DNA of 64,000 bases from Candidatus Methylacidiphilales bacterium (GCA_033875315.1 JANRJG010000040.1:1-64000); one strand, 5' to 3'. Shown: positions 7,623 to 62,847, counted from the first letter of the stretch. The notes: generated by a model not told the origin, from the sequence alone. A program made the numbers and translations.

Positions 7623-8667
7623 ATGTCCATGAACCCGAGGGTGCGGCTGGTAGACGTCGCGCGCCAAGCCGGCGTGAGCCTGGCCGCTGCCAGCATGGCC
7701 TTGCACGAGCCACCGCGGGGCATCTCCGCAGCAACGGCCGCTAAGGTCAGAACGGCCGCCAAGACACTGGGCTACGTGCCCGACTCGGCCGCACGCGCAC
7801 TCTCGATACAGTCTTCAGTCCAAAGGACCCCCTTCCGTGGGACAGTAGCCTACCTCATCAACCATAGCGGCCATGCTGGACGGCTGACCATCGAAGCCCA
7901 GACATCAGACCACCCCGAGGGATCCAATCTCAAATCACATCTCCGCGAACTGGGCTATCATATGGAGGGATATGTCCTTCCCGGGACCCAAAAAGAGGCC
8001 GACCAGCTCGCACGCATCCTTTATCAAAAAGGAACCGTTGAACTTCTCGTCGATTTCTACAACTGGCACTACGAGATCCGGTTCCCTTGGGAGGACTACG
8101 CGGTGGTCGCATCCTCGCCCCACCCTTTGCAGGCACGATTCGATTCGGTCATCGCCCATTCGTACAGCGATGTCATCCTTGCTGTCCGCGAATGCCGGCG
8201 GAGATCCTACAACAGGATCGGCCTTGCCGTTTCCTCAAAATGGTTCCCTGATTGGAAAATGGGGTTTGCTTACGCATCTGAGTGTTTCGGTGGCACTCTG
8301 GCCGACAAACCTCTTTTCTTGGATGACTGGAACATCGACCAATTTCTCCGTTGGTATGACAAGGCCAAGCCCGACGCTGTCATCGCCAATGAGGGATCGA
8401 GACTGCCCGAAGATCTTGCCGCCCGGGGCATCCATGTCTCTGAGGATCTCGGCTATTGCTGCCTGCATGTGCCCCCCCACCGGCAACGGCCTGACCGGGA
8501 TTCTTCAGAAGAACGATGAGGCCGATCGTCAAGCAGTCGCACTCCTCCACAACTCCGTGCTCTCCGGCCGTAAAGGCACAACCCTCACACCGATCCGTGT
8601 CGAGGTGATTGGCCAGTGGCACGAGGGGTCCACCATGCGCCCGGCCCCGGCTGAAGCGCTTCAGTAA
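7623..8667 (+). pseudogene. LacI-family regulator interrupted by a frameshift at a C7 tract
   Basis: The N-terminal helix-turn-helix is intact (VRLVDVARQAGVSLAAASMA) and the ligand-binding domain runs to DLGYCCLHVPP. At a run of seven C (8472-8478) the frame shifts: the first frame stops at 8519, while the missing C-terminus (GLTGILQKNDEADRQAVALL to the end) continues one base later, to 8667. Removing one C restores a 348-residue protein that aligns end to end with the LacI protein at 23098 (LGYCCLHV, LTGIYQ, WHEGETLRP). It may be a true mutation, a phase-variable tract or a homopolymer error in the assembly. A PEP-CTERM gene follows after 45 bp. Confidence 0.85.
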
Positions 8668-50327: not shown

Positions 50328-51398
50328 TCAAGCGTCACCGAGGGGACGGATACTTGGCCCATCCACCCAACGGCCCTCGATCATGGTCACGTGGGGCACC
50401 TGCGGAATGCCGTATTGGTTGCGGTTGATCCGGCTGACCACCAATTCCACCGCAGCCGAGCCGGTGTCAAAACTGTTCTGCTCTATTCCGGCGATGTGGT
50501 TCCAGCGGTAGTCACGGTCGAGGTGAATGAAGGAGATATCTTTGGGAATGCGGTAGCCGCCTTTCTCCAGCCAATGGTACACCAAATGGTCAGCACAGAT
50601 GACCACAGTGGTTTTGTTTTCTCGCACATGTTCCAACACCTGCTCCGGGGTGATCTTGTCCGCAAGCAGTGGAGGAATTCTGGCCAGTTTGGGGAGGAAA
50701 CTCGGGGCTCCGGTGTAGGCCGAAAGGTAACGGTATTCCTGCAGGCGCTGGGCTTCTTTATCCAAAACGAGCGTGACCCTGCGGTGGCCCATCGCATGAA
50801 CATGACGCAGGGCCATTTGCAGGCCGCTGAAGTGATCATGGGTCGCGGCATCAAGCTCGGGCAGATGGATGACGTTGCCCACCGAGGCCACCGCGTAGTT
50901 TTCCCATTCCGGTTTGAACCAGGCGGGGGGTGGTTCGCTCAAATGGATCAGCAGTCCGACCATCCGTCGCGTATACAAAGCCCTCTGGAATGAGCGCATG
51001 TCGGCGTGCAAATCTTTCCAATCGAATTGTTCCAGGGCGTAGCCGTGTTCTGAGGCCGCGGCCGTGGCACCACGGAGGTATTCCGATTTGCCGTAGTGTT
51101 CGCGATAGCTTTCCGGTGAGTCGAGAGGTCCGTGACTGAGGATTCCCATGATGGCTCTGACCCCGTTTTTGCGACGTTGTCGTGTTTCGACCATGAGGGC
51201 AGTGACAAGGGGGTTGACGCGGTAGTTTTCGTCTTTGGCCAACTGGAGAATGCGCGCACGCGTTTTCTCCGAGACGCCGGGTCGGTTGCGGAGAGCCATG
51301 CTCACGGCAGCAACACTGACCCCGGCCTTGCGGGCCAAATCCCGGTAGGTGGGGGGACCGGCGTGGTCGCCTTTCGACTTGTTTTTTTCTACTTTCAT
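50328..51398 (-). CDS. LacI-family transcriptional regulator, candidate for TTRACGYRTTWA
   Basis: 356 aa. Helix-turn-helix PTYRDLARKAGVSVAAVSMA, hinge YRVNPLVTALMVETR, ligand domain with GLLIHLSEPPPAW and GYRIPKDISFIHLD. AGG about 8 bases before the ATG at 51398 supports this start; the frame is open to 51428. Divergent from the prepilin operon, with an operator (51515) between them. As the only complete LacI gene beside one of these sites' operons apart from that at 26248, it is my best guess for the regulator of the set; this is inference. Confidence 0.92.
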   Translation of the reverse strand: MKVEKNKSKGDHAGPPTYRDLARKAGVSVAAVSMALRNRPGVSEKTRARILQLAKDENYRVNPLVTALMVETRQRRKNGVRAIMGILSHGPLDSPESYREHYGKSEYLRGATAAASEHGYALEQFDWKDLHADMRSFQRALYTRRMVGLLIHLSEPPPAWFKPEWENYAVASVGNVIHLPELDAATHDHFSGLQMALRHVHAMGHRRVTLVLDKEAQRLQEYRYLSAYTGAPSFLPKLARIPPLLADKITPEQVLEHVRENKTTVVICADHLVYHWLEKGGYRIPKDISFIHLDRDYRWNHIAGIEQNSFDTGSAAVELVVSRINRNQYGIPQVPHVTMIEGRWVDGPSIRPLGDA

Positions 51399-51514
51399 AC
51401 ACCTATAGTTGAGTGAATAAACGCGCACCCGCAGGTAATCGCCTGCCCTGCGATGGTTTTCTTCAGGTCTTGATTGGGTCCATTGAAGCGATTATGGGAA
51501 AGGTAGCAACTCAA

Positions 51515-51588: not shown

Positions 51589-52248
51589 ATGGCCAATATG
51601 CATACAATATATGTACATAAACCGATACGGCTGACCTCCCCAAGTGGGTTCAGCTTGGTGGAATTGCTCGCGGTTTTGGCTGTGATATCCGTGCTTTCCG
51701 CACTCTCGGTCATGGGGTTGAGCTCGCTCTACCCGGCAGGCAAATTCACGCGGTCCCTTTCCGACCTCAACGGCATCATTGAGCAGGCCAAAATCACCGC
51801 CACGTCCCAGAACACCTATGTCTGGCTGGGCTTGCTCGATGATGGCGGCAAAGACGGGATCTATGTTTCGGTGGTATCCTCGCTCAGTGGTGAAAACGAT
51901 CTGACCGCTTCCAATCTGCGCCCGGTCATCCGCCCGACCCTGCTCTCGCAAGTGGGCCTGGAAAATGACGTGGCCCGGAACAACTCCCTGGCCAACTCGA
52001 TTGATCCGAGCCTTCTCGAACAATTGACAACCAATACCAACGGCACGTTCAGCACCAAGTTCGCCGGGCAAACCAAGACCTTCACCCTGGTCCTGCGGTT
52101 CACGCCCCAGGGGGAAGTCAGTTGTCAGCCCAACACGTCCTCGCGTTGGATTGAAATCGGCTTGAAAAATCTTCAGGGCACATCCCCGAACGTGGCTTCC
52201 TTGCAGGTCAGCGGACTCGGAGGAAATGTGCGATTGGTTCGGCCCTGA
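51589..52248 (+). CDS. Prepilin-like protein (resembles Verru_Chthon cassette D)
   Basis: 219 aa. A short basic leader, then the prepilin peptidase site SG/FSLVELLAVLAVISVLSALS (residues 19-38): cleavage before Phe and a Glu at position 5 of the mature protein, as in type IV pilins and type II secretion pseudopilins. The rest is a small beta-type domain. Based on order and motif it matches the D protein of the Verru_Chthon cassette. First gene of the operon; operator 63 bp upstream. Membrane inserted, then assembled into a pseudopilus-like structure, by family knowledge. Confidence 0.83.
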   Translation: MANMHTIYVHKPIRLTSPSGFSLVELLAVLAVISVLSALSVMGLSSLYPAGKFTRSLSDLNGIIEQAKITATSQNTYVWLGLLDDGGKDGIYVSVVSSLSGENDLTASNLRPVIRPTLLSQVGLENDVARNNSLANSIDPSLLEQLTTNTNGTFSTKFAGQTKTFTLVLRFTPQGEVSCQPNTSSRWIEIGLKNLQGTSPNVASLQVSGLGGNVRLVRP

Positions 52249-52272
52249 ACGTCGGATTACGTTCAGGTAAAA

Positions 52273-52743
52273 ATGCGGATTCGATTTATGCTGGAACGCA
52301 AGCCATCGGCTTTCACGCTGGTCGAAGTGGCCCTAGCCCTCGGTATCGCCGCATTTTGTCTCATCACCCTGGTCGGTTTGTTGCCGGTCGGTATGCAGTC
52401 TGAAAAGGCGAGCAATGAGGAAACACGGGCGGTCAATTTGGTCGGTGCCGTTATCGATGATTTGAGATTCTCGCCGCTCGGCGGACCCAGTAAGCGTTTT
52501 GCCCTGCCGGATTTGCCCGCTGCCGCAGGAACGTCTTTGTTAACACGTCAGTATTTTATTTCCGAAAATGAAATGCTCTCCGCCCAGGCGGGCTCCAGAT
52601 ACGCCCTGAAGATTACCCAGTATCCCGTTTCTTCAGCCGATGCACGTGAGCCGGTGGGCTGCTTGGTCGAGGTGGCGTGGCCTGCCTCCGCTCCGGAGGC
52701 CCAACGCAACCGGGTGGAAACCTACGCCACCTTCCTACGTTGA
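52273..52743 (+). CDS. Prepilin-like protein (resembles Verru_Chthon cassette B)
   Basis: 156 aa. Basic start, then SA/FTLVEVALALGIAAFCLITL, a prepilin-type cleavage and helix with Glu5. The remainder (RAVNLVGAVIDDLRF and VEVAWPASAPEAQRN) resembles the PilV/GspI-like B protein of the Verru_Chthon cassette. 24 bp after the D-like gene. Confidence 0.83.
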   Translation: MRIRFMLERKPSAFTLVEVALALGIAAFCLITLVGLLPVGMQSEKASNEETRAVNLVGAVIDDLRFSPLGGPSKRFALPDLPAAAGTSLLTRQYFISENEMLSAQAGSRYALKITQYPVSSADAREPVGCLVEVAWPASAPEAQRNRVETYATFLR

Positions 52744-52796
52744 AAACAGCCTCCATCCCTTCTGGTCCCCGCATCCACAACTTTCGGAAGAGCGGG

Positions 52797-53567
52797 ATGA
52801 GAAAACGCGCGCTTGGCTTTACCCTGATCGAGCTGATGGTGGCGGTCGTTGTTTTTGTTGTCCTTGGCATGATCATCGCCCAGGTGACCGCACTGACCGG
52901 CAGTGCCATCCGGGAGAGCAACCGACGCATGGACGCCGTCAACCAGGCCCGTGTCGCCCTTGATCGCTTCACCCTTGATCTGCTCCAGATGAGCCGCGAC
53001 CCGCGCAGTCTTTACCAAGTTGACAAACTGCCGGGAAATGACGGGCTTTCATTTTATGCCGAAGTGCCGGCTTACTCCGGACGTCGACGGGTTTCGTTTG
53101 TCAATTACCGGGTCCAAACCGATGCCGCCACTTCACGCTTACGACTCGAGAGGGGCTTGACGGGAACGGATTGGGAAGCCACTGGCGGCAGCAAACCCCT
53201 CAATGTCTCCTCTGTGGAAACAGTTGGGGCCAATGACTTCGGTATTCTCGGCGAGAGCGTGTTCCGGGTCGAGTACGCCTTTGTCATGAAGGCGGATGGG
53301 TCGCTGGTGGCTTCACCCGGACCGAACTTCGCCCAAGTGGGCGCCATGATTGTGACCGTGGCGGCGATGGATCCGGAAAGTGCCAAGCTGGTCACTCCGG
53401 CCCAGTGGAATTCCCTTGTCGCCGCACTGACGGACGCTGTGGACGGCCAGTTTCCTCTCAAGGCCTGGACCGACCAGGTGGGAACCGCGGGATTTCTCGC
53501 CTTGGCGGCGAAAAACGCCACCGCTTCCGTCCGGATCTTTCAACGCAGCATTGTTCTCAATCCATGA
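52797..53567 (+). CDS. Prepilin-like protein (resembles Verru_Chthon cassette C)
   Basis: 256 aa. Prepilin signal LG/FTLIELMVAVVVFVVLGMI right at the start (ATG 52797; the frame is longer but this ATG sits just before the signal). GspJ/PilW-like body: VNQARVALDRFTLDLLQMSR. Its stop overlaps the next gene by 4 bp (ATGA). By position it matches the C protein of the Verru_Chthon cassette. Confidence 0.83.
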   Translation: MRKRALGFTLIELMVAVVVFVVLGMIIAQVTALTGSAIRESNRRMDAVNQARVALDRFTLDLLQMSRDPRSLYQVDKLPGNDGLSFYAEVPAYSGRRRVSFVNYRVQTDAATSRLRLERGLTGTDWEATGGSKPLNVSSVETVGANDFGILGESVFRVEYAFVMKADGSLVASPGPNFAQVGAMIVTVAAMDPESAKLVTPAQWNSLVAALTDAVDGQFPLKAWTDQVGTAGFLALAAKNATASVRIFQRSIVLNP

Positions 53568-56500
53568 ATGCCAGACAGCCATCGGGTTGGACAAGATTTT
53601 GCCGCGGCAGGGACGGGATCGCCCTGCTCTTCACCCTCGCCGCCGTGGCCCTCTTGAGTGTGTTGATCGTGGCCTATTTGAGTAAAACCCTCATTGGACG
53701 ACGGATTTCCTTCGGCAGTGCGGGCCAGGCGCGCGCGGATTTTCTTTCTCGCAGCGCCATGGATCTGATTCTGGGGGACCTGCGGGAAGAAATCCGGGCC
53801 GGCTCAGACGCCGGCACGACTTACCAGGATGCCGCCTCAGGAATCTGGATTTACAAGCCGATCAACAACAAGGCTGCCATGCCCATCCGGACGGGGACGT
53901 CGGATACCCTGCCCAACTTGATCAAAAGGAGTGTTTCCGCCACGGCTTTCTGGAATGAAAGCACCTTCAACGCCACCCCCACCGCACCCATCCGTGCCGT
54001 GGCCGTGAACAGCGAGACCGACCCAGCCTCCAACGGACAATACATCAGCAAAAAACGCTGGAACAAAAGCTACCTTCTCGGGGAAACGGTCCCCCCCGCA
54101 TTCGTCGCTCCTGACTGGGTCTTGATCACACGGCAGGGACCTTTCCGTGACACGACCACTGCACTGCCTGGCTTGGCGGTCTTGGGGGACGATACTGTGG
54201 GGAATGCCAACTACGTCATTGGACGTTTTTCCTACCTGATCTTTGATCAAGGGGGTCTTCTCGATATCAACCAGGCGGGCAACGGTCTGACTGCCTCGGA
54301 AAACAGCCGTCGAGGATTGATCCACCAAGCTGCCTTGGCGGCCATTCCGGGCTTGGGTGACCCGTCGGCCTTCGTCAATTGGCGGGACCCGGTTACCAGG
54401 GTCAACACCAGTTATTTGTTTTCCGGCCTGAATTCGTTCCTCATTCCGGCCGCTGGCAACCAGCGGCTCCTCGGCCGCCAGGACCTGTTGCGTTATGCCA
54501 GGGACAATCCCTCGGTCGTCGGCACGCAGGCCCTCCCCTACCTTGGGACCTTCAGCCGAGAATGGAACGCCCCCAGTTGGGTCCCGGCAACTCCCACCGG
54601 ATCCACCATCGATTATGCGGCCCAGGCAAATTCTACCGCAGCGGTGAACCGTGCGGTGGCCAATGTCCGCTTTCCCTCCGCCACGCCGGCCAACAAAACC
54701 ATCACCGGTTACAAATCAGATGGAACTTCCTTCAGTTATACCGTCAATCCTGGAGAGTCATTGGTGCAGCGACGTTTTCCACTGGCCCGCCTGGCCTGGT
54801 TGGGAACCAACGGCCCGGCCGCCGGGATCAGCGATGCGGCCATACAGGCCTGCTTTGGGTTAAAGTGGAACGCATCGAACCTGCGCTGGGACTACGTGGG
54901 CGCGGCGGGTTCGACCCCGCAAAGCAGCATCAAGACCTTGAACCAGGTGGCCGACGAACAGCGCGAGCCGAACTACTTCGAATTGCTCAAGGCGGCCATC
55001 TTGGAAGGTTCCACCGGCCTGGTTGTTCCTTCCTACCCGCAACCTGACAGCAATGGGTATGCGCTTTCGGTCAGCGATTGGGACCCATTCAATGCCACTA
55101 ACCGCAGTTACAATTCCGGGGCGGTGACCACCGCAGTGCTGCGCGACCGGCATATCCTGCAAATCGGAATGAACATCATCGATCAATCGGATGCCGACAG
55201 CTTCCCCATCCGGGTGTTTTTCAGTAATTTTGAATTTTATGGTTCGGAAAACTTGCCCTACCTCTACCGCATGAGCCTGACGGCCTACCGGCCCTTGGCT
55301 TCGAGCGGAAATGTTGACGGGGATCCCAGCCGGAATGTCCTCAGTGTTTGGTGGGAACCCACCTTCTGGAATCCTTTACAAACCACCTCAACCTATAACG
55401 GCCCGACCCAGTTCCGTTTGCGGCGTGTCTCTGGCACGGTTTATTCAGAAGCCATTTTAAATCCAGGAACGACATACAAGTCGGGGTCAGTTCCCGGTGG
55501 CACCAGTTCCTATCTGCAAATGGATTATGCCGATTGGTCATCTGTCGCGGCCAATCCCATCCTCTTGGGAGGGCTGAAGTCTTCCGGAGCAACCCTGTCC
55601 AGCGATTCCAACCAAGTGGAAAATTTCTACACGGGAGACGGCCTGAATTACGCCGGATTCTGGGCGGGCTCGATTTTCATCAGCTCCGGCGAGGAAGTGA
55701 ACAATGTCATTTATTCCCTGCCGGGCAACCAAGGGACGCGGCAGGGTCCACGTTACGCGTTGGAGGCCAACTATTCCGGGCAATGGAAGGAAGTCCAGCG
55801 TTTCGGCTATGGGGCCAATGGGGGACTCTGGGAAAGTTTCACCGCGACGGACAACCGGGCACGGGCCAGCAACCGACGCATCGGCACCACCTTGATTTCT
55901 GACCCCAGAACGTTCCGTTTTGGCATTCAAAAACCCGATCTGAATAGTGATGGTTTCGCCAATTTCATCAGCAAGACGGCCTTTTGGGATGCATCCAATC
56001 GATTGGAGACATTCTGGCAGCCGCAGTTTATTGCGGCGGACAATCACACCAATGCCTGGTGGATGAACAAAGGGCGGACCTACCGGCTTGCGGACAATAG
56101 CGGCGCACGCACTAACTCCAATGATCCCAACTACCCGGACCCTGACGGGGTGGTCCGGCCCGGGGATGGATGGTATTCCTCCGATGCAAGCAATACGCTC
56201 CCTATGCAAAACGGGAGCAAATACCGCCCGGTTCAACTCAACCGCCCGTTCCGGTCCGTCGCGGAAATGGGTTACACCTTCCGGGACATGCCCTGGCGCT
56301 CCCTGGATTTCTCCAATGACAAAAGCGCCGATGCCGCCTTGCTCGACTTCTTCTGTATGAATGATGCGGATGGCTCCACTGGCTTGGTCGCAGGCAAGGT
56401 CAATCTCAACACCCGGAATCCGGAAGTGTTGAAGGCCATGATATTGGGTGCGGCCCGGCAGGAAACCAACCTTGCCGGAAGTCAGATCAACAATTCCGAA

Positions 56501-56872
56501 GCCCAATCCTTTGCCGACGCCTTGACAGCCTTAACCAGGGGATCGGGAGCTGGACAGGGACCGCTGCTGAACAAATCCGAACTGGTCACGCGCTTTGGCA
56601 ACAACGCCCTATTCAGCGCCACCTCGGACGCCAACAAAATCAAAACCCAAAAGGAGGCGGTCATCCGGGCGCTGGCTGAGTCCGGCCAGACCCGCACGTG
56701 GAACCTGCTGATCGATGTCGTGGCCCAGGCGGGGCGATATCCAGCCAACCGCCCTGGAGCCACGCTGAAAGATTTTATGGTCGAAGGGGAACGCCGTTAT
56801 TGGCTCCATGTCGCCGTTGACCGCTATACCGGCAAGGTGGTGGATCGGCAGATGGAAATGGTATCCGAATGA
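53564..56872 (+). CDS. Large GspK-like prepilin protein (resembles Verru_Chthon cassette A)
   Basis: 1102 aa. One N-terminal helix, GIALLFTLAAVALLSVLIVA (residues 18-37), preceded by Arg/Gly, without the Glu5 of other prepilins, as in GspK-type tip pseudopilins. Then a very long extracellular body rich in Asn/Ser/Thr. C-terminal AGKVNLNTRNPEVLKAMI resembles the GspK-type helical region, then DRYTGKVVDRQMEMVSE. Size, position and composition match protein A of the Verru_Chthon cassette. ATGA start coupling with the C-like gene. Inference: tip or surface scaffold of a pseudopilus. Confidence 0.83.
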   Translation: MNARQPSGWTRFCRGRDGIALLFTLAAVALLSVLIVAYLSKTLIGRRISFGSAGQARADFLSRSAMDLILGDLREEIRAGSDAGTTYQDAASGIWIYKPINNKAAMPIRTGTSDTLPNLIKRSVSATAFWNESTFNATPTAPIRAVAVNSETDPASNGQYISKKRWNKSYLLGETVPPAFVAPDWVLITRQGPFRDTTTALPGLAVLGDDTVGNANYVIGRFSYLIFDQGGLLDINQAGNGLTASENSRRGLIHQAALAAIPGLGDPSAFVNWRDPVTRVNTSYLFSGLNSFLIPAAGNQRLLGRQDLLRYARDNPSVVGTQALPYLGTFSREWNAPSWVPATPTGSTIDYAAQANSTAAVNRAVANVRFPSATPANKTITGYKSDGTSFSYTVNPGESLVQRRFPLARLAWLGTNGPAAGISDAAIQACFGLKWNASNLRWDYVGAAGSTPQSSIKTLNQVADEQREPNYFELLKAAILEGSTGLVVPSYPQPDSNGYALSVSDWDPFNATNRSYNSGAVTTAVLRDRHILQIGMNIIDQSDADSFPIRVFFSNFEFYGSENLPYLYRMSLTAYRPLASSGNVDGDPSRNVLSVWWEPTFWNPLQTTSTYNGPTQFRLRRVSGTVYSEAILNPGTTYKSGSVPGGTSSYLQMDYADWSSVAANPILLGGLKSSGATLSSDSNQVENFYTGDGLNYAGFWAGSIFISSGEEVNNVIYSLPGNQGTRQGPRYALEANYSGQWKEVQRFGYGANGGLWESFTATDNRARASNRRIGTTLISDPRTFRFGIQKPDLNSDGFANFISKTAFWDASNRLETFWQPQFIAADNHTNAWWMNKGRTYRLADNSGARTNSNDPNYPDPDGVVRPGDGWYSSDASNTLPMQNGSKYRPVQLNRPFRSVAEMGYTFRDMPWRSLDFSNDKSADAALLDFFCMNDADGSTGLVAGKVNLNTRNPEVLKAMILGAARQETNLAGSQINNSEAQSFADALTALTRGSGAGQGPLLNKSELVTRFGNNALFSATSDANKIKTQKEAVIRALAESGQTRTWNLLIDVVAQAGRYPANRPGATLKDFMVEGERRYWLHVAVDRYTGKVVDRQMEMVSE

Positions 56873-56888
56873 AGAGAAAGGAATCGTG

Positions 56889-57677
56889 ATGCAAGTGGAA
56901 CGTTTTTTCAGTGGAAGGCGTGGGGGTTGTGTGGATGTGCTTTTTTGCCTGTTCACTTTGCTCGCCATGACATGTTCCGGGCAGGAAAAAGAAAAAGCAC
57001 CTTCCGATATTCCGGATCCGTTGGTCTTGAGGATTCCGGAAGGGTGCGCCATGACCTACCAAGCCCAACGCCTGCGTCCGCTGCCTGAGGAGGAGCGGAC
57101 GAACCAGAACCGGCTCAAGTGGCAACCCGATCCCGTGAGCGCCGTATATGCACGGGAGAACGGTCAACTCGCGATGCAGGCCCGCTGGGAAGGGGGCAAG
57201 GTTTCAGAATTCTACGTCAGGGGGGGCTATCTCATTTTCCAGGGTTCCCTGCGTTTCCCGAGCGACATCAGGATCGTGGAAGTCCATGCGGGCGACCGAT
57301 CCGCGCCCGATCTCAGCAAAGGGGATTTTCCGGAAATCCCCGCATTACGACGTGCGGATTACGTGCGGACGGAAAATATCCAGGGCAAAAAAATATACGT
57401 GTTCGAATGTTCATCCGCTGATGCGACAGGGCTGACGGCCCAATCCAAGGGGCTTTCCGAGGCCGCCACCCGGGCCTTGGCGGAACAAACAGAAGCTCCA
57501 GCCCAACAACATGTGTTGTGGCTTGATGCCAAAACCCTTCTGCCCGTGCAATACCGGAACAAGGACTTTGTCTATGATTACACACTGGACAAGTCCGCTT
57601 CTGCCCTGAGTCCGACGACAGAAGCGTTCAAAAAAGCAGTCCGAGAAGTCGAAACCAAAAAAACCTCCAAACCCTGA
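56889..57677 (+). CDS. Secreted protein of unknown function in the prepilin operon
   Basis: 262 aa. GAAAGGAA just upstream supports the ATG at 56889. Signal peptide (VDVLFCLFTLLAMTCSG), then a single globular domain with VLRIPEGCAMTYQAQRLRPL, MQARWEGGKVSEFYVRGGYL and LWLDAKTLLPVQYRNKDFVY, which recalls the sandwich folds of lipoprotein-carrier-like proteins. I cannot name it. The cysteine after the signal does not fit a standard lipobox. In the operon between the A-like protein and the MFS carrier. Confidence 0.72.
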   Translation: MQVERFFSGRRGGCVDVLFCLFTLLAMTCSGQEKEKAPSDIPDPLVLRIPEGCAMTYQAQRLRPLPEEERTNQNRLKWQPDPVSAVYARENGQLAMQARWEGGKVSEFYVRGGYLIFQGSLRFPSDIRIVEVHAGDRSAPDLSKGDFPEIPALRRADYVRTENIQGKKIYVFECSSADATGLTAQSKGLSEAATRALAEQTEAPAQQHVLWLDAKTLLPVQYRNKDFVYDYTLDKSASALSPTTEAFKKAVREVETKKTSKP

Positions 57678-57690
57678 GTTCAGAGGACAA

Positions 57691-59058
57691 TTGAATCCGT
57701 CCATGATGATCCTGGAAACCCAACATAAGAGGATTCCGTGGCGTTGGGTGGTACTGCTCGCTTTTGTCGGACAGGCCCATCTCTTTGTCATGGCCGCCTC
57801 GGGAAGCATGACCTTCACCATGCGGAAGTTCATCGAGTCACCGGTTTTGATCAACGGAATCAGCAGCCTGGATGTGTTGTTCAATGTGCTGGTGGCCGCT
57901 CCCTGCTTGTATTACAGCGACCGCATCTGGACACGCTATGGACGGCGCCTGCCTTTCGTCCTCACGGCTTGGTCCGTCATGGCAGTGGTGATGTTCCTGC
58001 TCCCGCTCGCGGGCCATGCCGTCCCGGTCGGGATTCTAGTCGTGCTATGGTTGATCTTCTGCGATGTTGGTTCGACTTTCCAGACGCTGCAGATGGAAAT
58101 CATTCCCCCGGAACAGCGTGGACGCGCCTCGGCGATTTCCGGTTGGTTTGGCAATATTGGAAACATGCTTTTTCTGGTCATCATCAGTGGCCGGTTTGAC
58201 GATGCCATCCATCTGGGTTCGTTCAAATTGGACGGCGAGCAATTGATTTACTGGTTTGCCGCATGTTGTGCGTGCTTCTGCGTGGTTTTTTCCATGTTAT
58301 TCATCCGGGAGCGTCCTCCGTTGGATGTTGCAAGGGAGGCGGACCAGCATTCAGGCCGCCTGGTGGGGGCGTTGCGTGAGTTGTTTGCCGAGCGTTCCCT
58401 GTGGCCCGTATACTTGCTGGCCTTTTCGACGATCTTGATGGGGACTGGTCTGGGCTCGCTGGGGGATCTCCTGGTCACCGAGCAGTGGGGATACTCAAAA
58501 CAAGAGATGGGTACAAATATCCTTTTTGGTGGGATCATCAACATGGTGGTGGTGATTCCGTTCATCGGCCTGATCGTGGACCGATTCCCCAAACTTCGTT
58601 TGGTGATGATCGGAGTGGTGTGTTTCTTCTTGGTGCGACTGGCCTATTATTTCTTCGTCCAGTACGTGCTACCTGATCATCGCCCCACGATAGGCCACAT
58701 GATTTTCTTCGGACAACTGATGTCAATATGTGGGGTCACTACAACCATTGCCCTGCAACCGTTGATCTTCGAGTACATTCCGCGGGGTAGGATGGGCACG
58801 GCCCAAGCGGGCCTTAACTTTGTCCGCAGCATCACCCGGTTGGTCACGCTCAACGGAGTCGGACTCTGGGTGGCCCTTTATTCGCAGTGGTTCCTGCCCC
58901 AAGGCCAGTACGATTACTTCAGCGGCACGTTGTTTTTGTTGCTGTTGGATGCGGCCAGCTTTGGTTTCCTTCTTTATTTTGCCCACTTGGTGCGTTTAGG
59001 GCGGATCCAGCCCGTGGGATTGGAAGGGTATTCAGAACGGGATGTGAAGATTCCATGA
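57691..59058 (+). CDS. MFS-type sugar transporter
   Basis: 455 aa with about 12 hydrophobic helices. Family features: DRIWTRYGRRLPFVLTA between helices 2 and 3 and EIIPPEQRGRASAISGW between 4 and 5, typical of the GPH/MFS carriers for sugars. Inner-membrane import of released oligosaccharides is likely. Start TTG at 57691 (AGAGGA just upstream); ATG at 57703 is possible. Its stop overlaps the next gene by 4 bp (ATGA). Confidence 0.88.
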   Translation: MNPSMMILETQHKRIPWRWVVLLAFVGQAHLFVMAASGSMTFTMRKFIESPVLINGISSLDVLFNVLVAAPCLYYSDRIWTRYGRRLPFVLTAWSVMAVVMFLLPLAGHAVPVGILVVLWLIFCDVGSTFQTLQMEIIPPEQRGRASAISGWFGNIGNMLFLVIISGRFDDAIHLGSFKLDGEQLIYWFAACCACFCVVFSMLFIRERPPLDVAREADQHSGRLVGALRELFAERSLWPVYLLAFSTILMGTGLGSLGDLLVTEQWGYSKQEMGTNILFGGIINMVVVIPFIGLIVDRFPKLRLVMIGVVCFFLVRLAYYFFVQYVLPDHRPTIGHMIFFGQLMSICGVTTTIALQPLIFEYIPRGRMGTAQAGLNFVRSITRLVTLNGVGLWVALYSQWFLPQGQYDYFSGTLFLLLLDAASFGFLLYFAHLVRLGRIQPVGLEGYSERDVKIP

Positions 59059-60140
59059 AAAGCTTTTTCAAAGTTGTCTTGGTGCCGGGTTTGGGATTGC
59101 TTCTCGTCGTGCTGGCCTTGATCTGGTGCGGACGCGAGTTGCGTCTTGTTTTCTTCGGGGAACATACAGAAGCCCGGGTGGTGGCGATGTTGTTGGTCCG
59201 CTCTACGGGAACCGACCTCATGCGATCGACCGTAACCGATATCACCATGCAAACTCCCGATGGCAGAAGGGTATTCGCCCGTTTCAAGGATGACCAAGCC
59301 ATCGAAGGATGGGTCGATCTATCAGGGACTGTCTCTTCTTCACCGGATCGGACTGGTGAAATGGCTGGTTTGCAGCAAATGAAGCCCGATTGGCAACAGA
59401 TGGTCACTCAGGCTTCCAAAGGCGATGCATCTGTATTGCGGGGTATCTTGAAGCGTGAGGGCCGCAGAAGCGGAGATCCGGATCGGATTGTGGCTATCGG
59501 CCGAACGGACCGGGTGGAAGGGTGGTTCGGTCTGGCCGATCTGCCAGAAGGGTTTGATGTGGACCATGGTGGATTGGTCCCCAAGGGGCCAGCCATGACC
59601 TCGGGTTTGGGGTGGATCCAAATCAGTGCACGCTTCGATCGATCAGACCTGGCAGCCTTGGACGCAAGTCGGGGCGAATTGATGAAGGACTACCGATACG
59701 TAAAGGAAGGTTACGATGTCCAAACGACAAAAAGAGATTTTTATCTCTACGCCGAGCCACGGTCCACGGAGTTTCGTCCGGTTTTTCAATACAGCGCCGG
59801 GGGGCGCATAATCACGCAGATATCGCATATCGGACGATATGGTGGTCCTACGCTGGCCCTCCAATTGTTCGGACCGGCGGATGTGTATTTTGATCCCAAG
59901 AAACCGGAGGATAGTGTGCTGCTCGCACATGTTGGTCCGCTGGAGGGTCGATTCTTGGATTGGTTCAGCCGGGTTTGCGAAGGACTTTTCGGCCAGTGGG
60001 GAGGCCCGGCCGTGGTGGCCTTTGTCGGGGTCTGTTTCCTGATTGCCGGATTGGTTCATGCCTCGCTTCTTTTTTTCCCGAGCCGCCATCTCGGAACATA
60101 TGTTGATCCCACAGCGGCTGGGAAAAGAGAGGGAGGATGA
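59055..60140 (+). CDS. Two-TM membrane protein of unknown function
   Basis: 361 aa. One helix at the N-terminus (VPGLGLLLVVLALIWC) and one near the C-terminus (AVVAFVGVCFLIAGLVH); about 300 residues in between form a soluble domain (ITMQTPDGRRVFARFKDDQA; GWVDLSGTVSSSPD). No family recognised; the repeated domains could be periplasmic. Coupled by ATGA overlaps to both neighbours (MFS carrier before, alginate-lyase-like gene after). Confidence 0.75.
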   Translation: MKSFFKVVLVPGLGLLLVVLALIWCGRELRLVFFGEHTEARVVAMLLVRSTGTDLMRSTVTDITMQTPDGRRVFARFKDDQAIEGWVDLSGTVSSSPDRTGEMAGLQQMKPDWQQMVTQASKGDASVLRGILKREGRRSGDPDRIVAIGRTDRVEGWFGLADLPEGFDVDHGGLVPKGPAMTSGLGWIQISARFDRSDLAALDASRGELMKDYRYVKEGYDVQTTKRDFYLYAEPRSTEFRPVFQYSAGGRIITQISHIGRYGGPTLALQLFGPADVYFDPKKPEDSVLLAHVGPLEGRFLDWFSRVCEGLFGQWGGPAVVAFVGVCFLIAGLVHASLLFFPSRHLGTYVDPTAAGKREGG

Positions 60141-61276
60141 GTTTCTTTAAATACGTTCTGAGTGCAGCAGTGGGAATGTGTGCTGCTTGGCCGCTACGTG
60201 GCATGGAGCCCGGTGAATTTGCCCTGCGCTCGGTGTTGCCTTTGGAGCGGAGGCAATACGAACGTTTGCGCGCTCTGGTGGCCCAAGACCGAGAGGCTGC
60301 CCGCCAGCTTCAGGCTCTCCGTTTTGAAACGGCCCCTTGGATCGCTTCCAAGCCAAACCCCCTGCGGGTGATCCGGTATGAAGGGCTGGTCGATACCGAC
60401 CCCGGTCGCCGCGCGGATGTCGAGAATTTGCGGACCCTGGACCATGTCGCTGCGCTCTTGCTGCTCTGGCAGGCGACCGGGGACGAGGCGGCGGCGCGGA
60501 CGGTGATGGATCATGTCCGCGCCTGGTCGGCCACGTACGTTCCCACAGGGAACGACGTCAATGAAAACAAGCTGGCCCCACTTTTGGTGGCGGCCCTGAC
60601 TTTCCGCAGTTCGTTCTCCCGGGATGATCTGGCCCGCATCGACACGTGGATTCATGACATCGGCAGGTTGCACGCGGAAGGTTTGGGCGGGGCTCCGGAC
60701 CGCGGGAACCGCTTTGCGAAACGACTCAGGCTTCTGGCCCTGTGCGCGGCCTGGAGTGGTAACGACGTCTGGTGGCAGGATTGCCGGAGGGGATTTACGG
60801 CGTTTGTCGACAAGAGTTTGTTTGAAGACGGCGGGAGCTATGATCTGCAAATGCGGGATAGCCTGACCTACCATTTAAGTGGTCTCTTGAGTGTGATCGA
60901 ATTGTTGCATTCCCTGGGTCCGGATGCAGGGCGGCTTTATCATTCGGTTTCGGCGCGCGGTTCATCGGTGAGAAAATCGGTCCATTACCTCATCCCCTAT
61001 GTCCTTGGAGAAAAACAACGACAGGAATGGGTTCATTCCAAAGTGGGATTGGACCACGCGCGTGCGGCGGCGGGGTTGGAAGCCTACCGGCCTGGCAGAT
61101 ACTACAATGGACGTGATGCCCTGCCTTTGTTGGAGATGGCGGCGCGGTTTGATGAAGAGCTGCGAATGCGACTACCGGAACTTCGTACCATCCACAAGAT
61201 GGAGATGCCCGATTGGGCCTGTCTCATCACCACTGCTTGCGACCGGGGTAACCCCGTACGCCCGGGCTTCCGCTGA
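60137..61276 (+). CDS. Alginate-lyase-like protein
   Basis: 379 aa with an N-terminal signal peptide (KYVLSAAVGMCAAWPLRG). Family pattern of the PL5-type alpha/alpha-barrel lyase: RVIRYEGLVDTDPG, LDHVAALLLLWQATGD, WSATYVPTGNDVNENKLAPL, FEDGGSYDLQMRDSLTYHLS. It would cleave uronic-acid-containing polysaccharide by beta-elimination, probably outside the cytoplasm. Last gene of the operon, with ATGA overlap with the preceding gene. An operator follows two bases after its stop. Confidence 0.85.
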   Translation: MSFFKYVLSAAVGMCAAWPLRGMEPGEFALRSVLPLERRQYERLRALVAQDREAARQLQALRFETAPWIASKPNPLRVIRYEGLVDTDPGRRADVENLRTLDHVAALLLLWQATGDEAAARTVMDHVRAWSATYVPTGNDVNENKLAPLLVAALTFRSSFSRDDLARIDTWIHDIGRLHAEGLGGAPDRGNRFAKRLRLLALCAAWSGNDVWWQDCRRGFTAFVDKSLFEDGGSYDLQMRDSLTYHLSGLLSVIELLHSLGPDAGRLYHSVSARGSSVRKSVHYLIPYVLGEKQRQEWVHSKVGLDHARAAAGLEAYRPGRYYNGRDALPLLEMAARFDEELRMRLPELRTIHKMEMPDWACLITTACDRGNPVRPGFR

Positions 61277-61326: not shown

Positions 61327-62847
61327 GTGCTATTGGATGATCGTTCGTTCTTTGGAATCCTTATATTGAAAACGATCACGATCAAGCCGCAGTGGGGCGG
61401 TCCATGCAGCCCGCTCCGTCACACTTGGGAAGGAATGGTCAATGTGGACCAGTTCCGGTGGATGGTGCGCGCGGACATGCAGGAGCAATTGGCGATGGCG
61501 CACGCAGAAATTGGCGCGCGCCACGTCCGCGCCGTTGGGATGCTGGATGATGAAATGCGCGTGTTGACGAAGGATCCCGGGGTATGGCCGGAACAGCGCC
61601 TGCATGAGCGGCCCAACTGGCAGATCAATACCATGATCATCGAACGGTTGTTGGAGAGGGGAATCTTTCCCATGATCACGACAGCTTTCATGCCGGGGGT
61701 GCTGGCCTCCGGAACCCGCACCGTTTTTGAAACACGCTCCCGCATCAGCCTGCCCACGGACATGAAGGAGTGGCGCAAGCTTGTGGGCCATCTGGTGCGG
61801 CATCTCGTCGACCATTTTGGGATCGGGGTGGTGCGTGGACTTTATTTCGAAGTTTGGAACGAACCCAATCTGCGCAACGGATTTTTTGAAGGGGACCAGC
61901 GCGATTTCTTCGACCTCTATGAAAACACCCAGGCGGCGATCAAGGAGGTGGACGCCTCGTTCAAGGTGGGTGGTCCCTCGACGGCCCGTGCCGAATGGAT
62001 GCCTGAATTCATGAGCTTCTGTCGCTCCCGCAACATCGAACCCGAATACATCATCGGGCACGTCTACAACAACGACAGTGACAGCCAGCCGCTTTCCCCG
62101 TTCGATGGTCCCCAGGAGGACCGGGTTTCTCAGTCGCCGCATTTTGCCGCCGGAGTCATCCGCGGGACGCGCAAATTCCTCGACGAAATAGGTTATCGGG
62201 GTGAGGTGCATTGGAACGAGTGGGGTCGTTCCTGGTTTCCCTGCGAGCCTGTCCGGGAAAGTGCTAATGAGGCGGCCTTCATCGTCAAAACCATGGCGGA
62301 AGTTTCCCAGCTGGGGGACTATTTTGCCTATTGGTGTCTGAGCGACATATACGACCAAGTGGGCTATGGAAGCCGTGCCTTCCATGGGAATTACGGCATG
62401 CTCAATTTGCAAGGACTGCGGAAGCCCGCCTACCATGCCTTTCAATTGTTGTGTCGCCTGGGTGAGCGGCGGGTCGCGGTGGAGGGTGAGCATTTGGATT
62501 CGCTTCACCAAGCGCTGGCCACGGAGTCCAAGGAGGGTGGCGCGGTGCTTTTTTATGCCTACGACGCCTCGGGCAGCCATCCTCCCTGCGCAGAGTCCCT
62601 GAAGTTGCGCGTGCGTTTGCCGGAAGGAAGCGCGGTGCAATCGGTCACACGTTTGACGGAAGATGAAAACAACATCCTTCACACTTGGCGGGCATCCGGC
62701 AGTCCCCCGTACTTGAAGCGGGAGCTGCTCGAGGAGTTGCGTGCCGCAAACCGGCTTAAACCGTTCCATGGATACGATCAGATCGGATCAGAGATGAGTT
62801 TTGAATTTTCCGCTCCGGGCGTGGCCTTGATCGAGTTCCAATCCTGA
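61327..62847 (+). CDS. GH39-type glycosidase
   Basis: 506 aa from the GTG at 61327 (a TTG at 61366 is an alternative start nearer the conserved part). TIM barrel: FEVWNEPN with Glu179 as acid/base and GEVHWNEWG with Glu298 as nucleophile, then YFAYWCLSDIYDQVGYG and a C-terminal beta domain. GH39 enzymes release beta-xylose or act on uronic-acid-containing chains such as alpha-L-iduronides. The operator at 61278 suggests co-control with the prepilin operon. No signal peptide, so cytoplasmic. Confidence 0.88.
   Translation: MLLDDRSFFGILILKTITIKPQWGGPCSPLRHTWEGMVNVDQFRWMVRADMQEQLAMAHAEIGARHVRAVGMLDDEMRVLTKDPGVWPEQRLHERPNWQINTMIIERLLERGIFPMITTAFMPGVLASGTRTVFETRSRISLPTDMKEWRKLVGHLVRHLVDHFGIGVVRGLYFEVWNEPNLRNGFFEGDQRDFFDLYENTQAAIKEVDASFKVGGPSTARAEWMPEFMSFCRSRNIEPEYIIGHVYNNDSDSQPLSPFDGPQEDRVSQSPHFAAGVIRGTRKFLDEIGYRGEVHWNEWGRSWFPCEPVRESANEAAFIVKTMAEVSQLGDYFAYWCLSDIYDQVGYGSRAFHGNYGMLNLQGLRKPAYHAFQLLCRLGERRVAVEGEHLDSLHQALATESKEGGAVLFYAYDASGSHPPCAESLKLRVRLPEGSAVQSVTRLTEDENNILHTWRASGSPPYLKRELLEELRAANRLKPFHGYDQIGSEMSFEFSAPGVALIEFQS

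Follow-up and report, generated by a model that had tools for sequence, protein, structure and literature searches.

Four families of prepilin-type proteins, Verru_Chthon A, B, C and D (TIGR02600, TIGR02598, TIGR02599 and TIGR02596), are encoded in cassettes of four adjacent genes. To our knowledge, no function has been assigned to these cassette families, and a literature search yielded no paper that names them. A comparable set of four subunits is formed by the minor pseudopilins GspH-I-J-K (XcpU-V-W-X) of type II secretion systems (T2SSs). Among these, GspK has been proposed as the end of the pseudopilus that meets the T2SS substrates; like PilX, it contains no Glu at position +5 (PMC7541494). 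Alternative tips are represented by the minor pilin/PilY1 clusters 1-3 of Myxococcus, which provide one machine with several tip sets, each composed of four minor pilins and a fifth, non-pilin protein (PMC7541494). In Akkermansia, the MUL2 locus (Amuc_1098-1102) ties pilus-type machinery to the use of glycans (PMC13174399). Finally, a gene for a PulG-like pseudopilin is clustered with lyase genes and a transporter gene within an alginate-induced operon region of Verruconatronum (PMC13274419).

The locus studied here lies in a window of 64,000 nucleotides, which is the whole stretch of DNA analysed and lies on contig C40 of a verrucomicrobial assembly (3.15 Mb, 42 contigs). Of the 62 genomes compared within the order, this assembly alone represents its family. 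Four prepilin-type genes (D, B, C and A) span positions 51589-56872 and are followed by genes for a secreted protein (E), an MFS carrier (F), a two-TM protein (G), a lyase-like enzyme (H) and a GH39 glycoside hydrolase (Table 1). The open reading frames between 51589 and 61276 were confirmed as originally predicted, and so were, from coordinates and sequence, the three ATGA overlaps that join C to A (53564), F to G (59055) and G to H (60137). The intergenic distances within the run range from -4 to 53 bp. The gaps other than the overlaps amount to about 24 bp (D-B), 53 bp (B-C), about 13-16 bp (A-E) and about 13-25 bp (E-F); the start codons of B, E and F are uncertain. The GH39 gene begins about 50 bp after the lyase gene and extends the run, of which it is probably the last member. 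Its start was placed at the GTG because a conserved H-x-WEG motif precedes the later ATG, both in the window and in the homologue from genome G008. From D to GH39 the genes form one apparent operon, and we infer that they are co-transcribed. The divergently encoded LacI-family regulator probably places the cassette under sugar-responsive control. Both the GH39 gene and this regulator had been overlooked in the original prediction. An imperfect palindrome at 51394-51417 is a candidate LacI operator; promoter- and terminator-like sites at the locus occurred at a level near chance and were not used as evidence. Our preferred reading, to which we give reasonable though limited credence, is that these genes specify an alternative minor-pseudopilin tip, which is under the control of sugar and serves a polysaccharide-use locus.

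Table 1. Features of the locus and the matches that characterize them. Positions are those of the 64,000-nucleotide window.
Feature	Position	Strand	Description	Evidence
LacI	50328..51428	-	Regulator of the LacI family, encoded divergently to the cassette	PF00356 (2e-11), PF13377 (2e-7)
D	51589..52248	+	Prepilin, GspH-like minor pseudopilin; G/FSLVE cleavage motif, Glu+5	TIGR02596 (31 bits), TIGR01708 GspH (21 bits)
B	52273..52743	+	Prepilin, GspI/GspJ-like; start 52273 or 52288	TIGR02598 (45 bits)
C	52797..53567	+	Prepilin, GspJ-like	TIGR02599 (32 bits), GspJ model (21 bits)
A	53564..56872	+	GspK-like tip pseudopilin of giant size (1102 aa) with a large insert; Glu+5 absent	AlphaFold model, structure and profile matches
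E	56886..57677	+	Secreted protein; start GTG 56886 or ATG 56889	Position after A, fold prediction
F	57703..59058	+	MFS carrier, sugar-transport type; start uncertain (57691-57706)	PF07690 (3e-21), PF13347 (1e-16)
G	59055..60140	+	Two-TM protein	PF12158 (DUF3592-like; E 0.03), a weak match at best
H	60137..61276	+	PF05426 (alginate-lyase superfamily) enzyme; signal-peptide-like N-terminus	PF05426 (9e-11)
GH39	61327..62847	+	Glycoside hydrolase of family GH39; no evident signal peptide	PF01229 (1e-77)

The types of the prepilin subunits were derived from comparisons of sequences and structures. D, B and C matched TIGR02596, TIGR02598 and TIGR02599 with E-values of 2e-7 to 1e-11, all below the cut-offs (31 of 70, 45 of 51.4 and 32 of 256.5 bits, respectively). 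A reached 19 of 332 bits with TIGR02600, to which it is homologous at the N-terminus only, and it was absent from the hmmscan listing. Because the scores lie under the cut-offs and TIGR02600 matches A only at its N-terminus, the four proteins resemble the Verru_Chthon families without being members of them; the likeness expected originally was thus found, whereas membership was not. The locus further differs from these families in its gene order, which is D-B-C-A-E instead of B-C-D-A or C-A-D, and in the added gene E. With respect to the T2SS, the order D-B-C-A parallels H-I-J-K. In comparisons of family profiles, the best partner of D was GspH (probability 98.6) and that of C was GspJ (97.4 over 100 columns); B was nearly tied between GspJ (96.7) and GspI (95.8). 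The matches of all three profiles come mostly from the N-terminal helix. The Glu at position +5 is kept in D, B and C, with one Asp among the 78 residues counted. A sequence search of the PDB with the profile of B gave no match. Judged by these profiles, D, B, C and A appear to correspond to the minor pseudopilins GspH-I-J-K, with B standing between GspI and GspJ.

A is far larger than GspK (1102 versus about 300 residues). Comparison of its AlphaFold model (pTM 0.82, mean pLDDT 76) by VIA-align gave just three PDB chains with Z of at least 5, all of them GspK or XcpX, and the next match had a Z of 4.6. The three were XcpX in the XcpGHIJK filament model (Z 13.4, 269 of 295 residues), XcpX 5vtm (Z 13.3) and GspK 3ci0 (Z 12.8). 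Foldseek by itself listed GspK only at rank 10 (E 0.5). Structures of PilX and PilY1 were absent from the match lists, which is not counted as evidence against either. The only partner of the A-family profile was the GspK family as compiled from these genomes, and A was also matched weakly by the GspK model of NCBIfam. A Glu at position +5 occurs in none of the 34 aligned A proteins. Given the GspK-only structure matches, the profile pairing and the missing Glu, A looks like a GspK that carries a large insert. Residues ~546-890, inside the insert, are the least conserved part, with a mean pairwise identity of 23% compared to 35-47% elsewhere. Neither a search of PDB sequences with the profile of A nor a first scan of the genome's contigs with A alone yielded a match. 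Beta-sandwich proteins matched to the insert (PsaA, C2, a glucuronidase and the sugar-binding domain of Wzt) were rejected as too weak (Z about 3-4.6).

E had been described before as a secreted protein and had been overlooked as a part of the cassette. Sequence comparison established it as the conserved fifth gene: all 71 of its homologues lie directly 3' of an A gene. The predicted model (pLDDT 82) suggests a LolA/RseB/ependymin-like fold. Foldseek matched it to LprG and RseB (probability 1.00, E 1e-4), and the Z values for RseB (8.9), EPDR1 (9.7) and LolA (8.6) are borderline informative. None of 46 members of the E family had a Pfam match. An added gene with such a predicted LolA/RseB-like fold has no counterpart in the T2SS set, from which the cassette also departs in lying apart from the machine genes and next to genes for sugar use. 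In contrast to the Myxococcus clusters, the fifth protein is not PilY1-like, the fourth is a giant, GspK-like one, and the surroundings are those of sugar genes.

The cassette is a real and recurrent genetic unit. Among the 384 genomes of the class, TIGR02600 had matches in 239, and the profile of the A type found in the window had matches in 62 at E ≤1e-10, often with several copies each. Neighbourhoods were surveyed at 20 loci and, in a second round, at 80 named ones; the latter were drawn from 34 assemblies, which represent Chthoniobacterales/Spartobacteria, Methylacidiphilales, Akkermansiaceae and others. At these loci, 46 A genes had the order D-B-C-A. A downstream neighbour was called for 80 A genes; in 56 cases this next gene was E, coding for a small secreted protein, and in 25 it shared 4 or 8 bp with A. 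E was found at none of 30 canonical TIGR02600 loci, and many of the canonical loci are ordered C-A-D or B-C-D-A. Since these 30 loci are devoid of E and differ in gene order, two cassette types can be distinguished, and the window contains the E-bearing one. The arrangement is far beyond chance, because the order D-B-C-A-E recurs in dozens of genomes.

The genomic context of the cassettes, likewise established by comparison, consists of sugar regulators, glycoside hydrolases and carriers, beside which they recur in Verrucomicrobiota. Of 73 related cassettes, 39, or about half, have a LacI-, GntR- or AraC-type regulator no more than three genes away. Regulators account for 42 of 386 flanking genes (10.9%) and for 2 of 244 control genes (0.8%; Fisher p 1.6e-7); in this comparison, the loci are not independent, as the 80 were drawn from 34 assemblies, and a cassette with a regulator at most three genes away is present in 15 of these. 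The controls were stretches of class genomes chosen regardless of cassettes and partly from the same genomes; three of the 19 stretches held a cassette and were excluded. The 25 commonest Pfam families among 107 flanking genes included GH130 (three genes), GH36, GH35, GH38, GH5, GH43 and GH39 (two each), MFS (six), SASA esterases (four) and SSF (two). The corresponding 25 families of 110 control genes comprised no glycoside hydrolase and two MFS genes; in both tallies, families with a single member are incompletely counted. It could be argued that in a carbohydrate-rich genome a cassette of unrelated function would fall beside sugar genes by chance, and the rest of the window is indeed full of GH and LacI genes. 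However, the control stretches, some of them from the same genomes, are poor in such genes, and the tight gaps and the three ATGA junctions speak against a fortuitous neighbourhood, which we consider quite improbable.

The same genome contains five A-type genes, on contigs C3, C9, C15, C18 and C40. The cassette on C9 is nearest to that of the window: the A proteins are about 40% identical over the alignment, and BLAST pairs exist for D, B and C. It has its own E gene and an adjoining GntR-type regulator, and is flanked by genes for a GH29 enzyme and an ABC sugar-binding protein. The cassette on C3 is canonical, exceeding the cut-offs for A and B; a sulfatase gene is located in its surroundings and a GH16 gene farther away. 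GH43 and GH16 genes surround the cassette on C18. Among the neighbours examined on C15, which included a TonB-receptor plug and TPR proteins, there was no carbohydrate gene. This cassette, which favours a chance neighbourhood and to which the refutation named beforehand applies in part, is of a different subtype without E; the cassettes on C9, C3 and C18 do have carbohydrate genes nearby. The presence of related tip sets beside sugar-use genes throughout the phylum suggests interchangeable tips that are matched to particular sugars.

None of the machine genes is part of the cassette. The genes of the genome's one T2SS are split between two contigs, with GspE-F-G-H-I on C15 and GspJ-K-L-M-D on C38, where GspL was assigned from its position only. 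The housekeeping GspD, E, F, G, H, I, J, K and M thus form one set away from the window. As this T2SS is encoded elsewhere, the cassettes appear to be additional, exchangeable-looking tip sets. PF03934 (T2SSK) was dropped as a test for GspK, as it hit none of the cassette proteins and failed to detect the GspK of the T2SS encoded in this genome. A pilus locus of the Amuc_1098-1101 type is located on C9, and PilB/PilC-type genes on C42. With this machine encoded in the genome, the cassette might instead supply the tip of a type IVa pilus that attaches the cell to particles instead of handling soluble polymer. The match of A to GspK over 226-269 residues and the absence of a PilY1-like gene from the cassette make this rather unlikely. 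The locus also differs from MUL2, which comprises a machine (PilM, secretin) and one pilin, whereas the window encodes a tip cassette, and, compared on that gene alone, from the alginate operon of Verruconatronum, whose PulG-like pseudopilin is of the major type and not of the minor types found here.

According to our preferred reading, the LacI-controlled operon would make a dedicated tip, with a T2SS- or T4P-type pseudopilus capped by D, B, C and A. A would carry the large, variable surface domain, and E may be its periplasmic partner. The pseudopilus, driven by the shared machine of the genome, would thereby bear a tip suited to one polysaccharide. At the outer surface, this tip could hold the polymer or draw it in, or it could deliver an exported enzyme. 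A pseudopilus-like device tied to polysaccharide had been predicted, and the GspK fold of A, the pairing of D with GspH and of C with GspJ, and the recurring sugar context argue for it; binding or uptake, which had been added as its task, fits no better than enzyme delivery, and we regard capture or uptake of the polymer and export of enzymes as about equally likely.

One version of export assumes that a substrate-specific T2SS tip serves for the export or display of the lyase and further exoenzymes of its locus, with no binding of polymer for uptake. The T2SS in the genome, the signal-peptide-like N-terminus of H and the proposed role of GspK agree with it. Sequence alone cannot tell export from uptake, and known T2SSs handle many substrates through one tip, so that we find this version somewhat doubtful. 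Alternatively, a retractile tip could capture polysaccharide and help it to enter the periplasm, replacing the SusCD system of Bacteroidota. This tentative but quite conceivable alternative is in line with the variable insert of A, with the LacI/GntR-type regulators adjoining cassettes and with the operon itself, in which Pfam searches detected no gene for a TonB receptor or SusCD. Moreover, glycan uptake in Verrucomicrobiota is selfish and, in Akkermansia, needs the pilus-related mul genes (as reported in PMC13174399). On the other hand, Pfam searches and structure comparison found no carbohydrate-binding family or fold in A or E, and retraction and binding are purely hypothetical. More speculative, and in our estimate rather doubtful, is the generalization that many sugar-induced, interchangeable tips, which combine a giant variable GspK with a dedicated periplasmic partner E and capture or take up specific polysaccharides by way of a shared machine, constitute a pilus-based counterpart of SusCD in Verrucomicrobiota. 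The cassette is a candidate for the poorly understood handling of polysaccharides at the surface of Verrucomicrobiota without SusCD, and the GspHIJK-type reading, the fifth gene and the link to sugar genes make its role directly testable.

Downstream of the proposed tip, the lyase would cut the polymer, the oligosaccharides would enter via the MFS carrier, and the GH39 enzyme would finish them in the cytoplasm. The earlier designation of H as alginate-lyase-like holds at the level of the family, as its score for PF05426 (42.2 bits) exceeds the gathering score of 22.2 bits; "alginate lyase" is only a family label, putative as to the substrate. The motifs R240-D-x-L-x-Y245-H246 and N142-E-N-K of H are invariant in three homologues. 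Homologues of H were restricted to G008 and LW23 when 368 other genomes of the class were searched. In strain LW23, the gene has a pectate-lyase-like neighbour and is located two genes 3' of a D-B-C-A-E cassette; in G008, the homologues of H and GH39 are about 5 kb apart. No homologue of G was found in the 61 other genomes of the order. Homologues of the carrier F (35-39% identity) are encoded near the cassettes of loci L130 and L131, and a paralogue of 796 residues is encoded about 7 kb downstream on the same contig.

The 30 canonical Verru_Chthon (TIGR02600) loci contain cassettes with the gene order C-A-D and others, and the gene of the secreted protein E was found in none of them. The housekeeping T2SS genes are split, with E-F-G-H-I at one locus and J-K-L-M-D at the other. 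The MUL2-type locus (Akkermansia pilus type) on contig C9 additionally contains a tandem pair of secretins. Its presence here differs from a previous report, according to which MUL2 is undetected in Methylacidiphilales (PMC13174399).

Compared to the window carrier, the related 796-aa MFS protein has a long additional C-terminal part. At L131, an 840-aa relative is encoded near a cassette.

Between positions 7623 and 31303 of the window, five secreted proteins of 219–296 aa have PEP-CTERM-like C-termini, three of them above the Pfam cut-off. Each of the five genes adjoins a regulator-like gene (LacI family by Pfam in four cases); regulator and PEP-CTERM protein are a recurring pair. The LacI gene that is divergent from the window cassette has, at its start, an imperfect palindrome (positions 51394-51417, TTCATACACCTATAG/CTATAGTTGAGTGAA), which is possibly an operator.

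Coordinates of the features (pairs: PEP-CTERM-like protein/regulator-like gene, window positions)
Feature	Location	Remark
Housekeeping T2SS genes	L053 and L259 (contigs C15 and C38)	two loci far apart
Amuc_1098/1100/1101-like genes	L260:6105-13999 (contig C9)	MUL2 type
796-aa MFS protein	L021:5935-8325 (contig C40 65935-68325)	39% identity to window carrier
Pair 1	7623/8800	
Pair 2	16456/15421	
Pair 3	23125/24277	
Pair 4	26431/25473	
Pair 5	29284/30503
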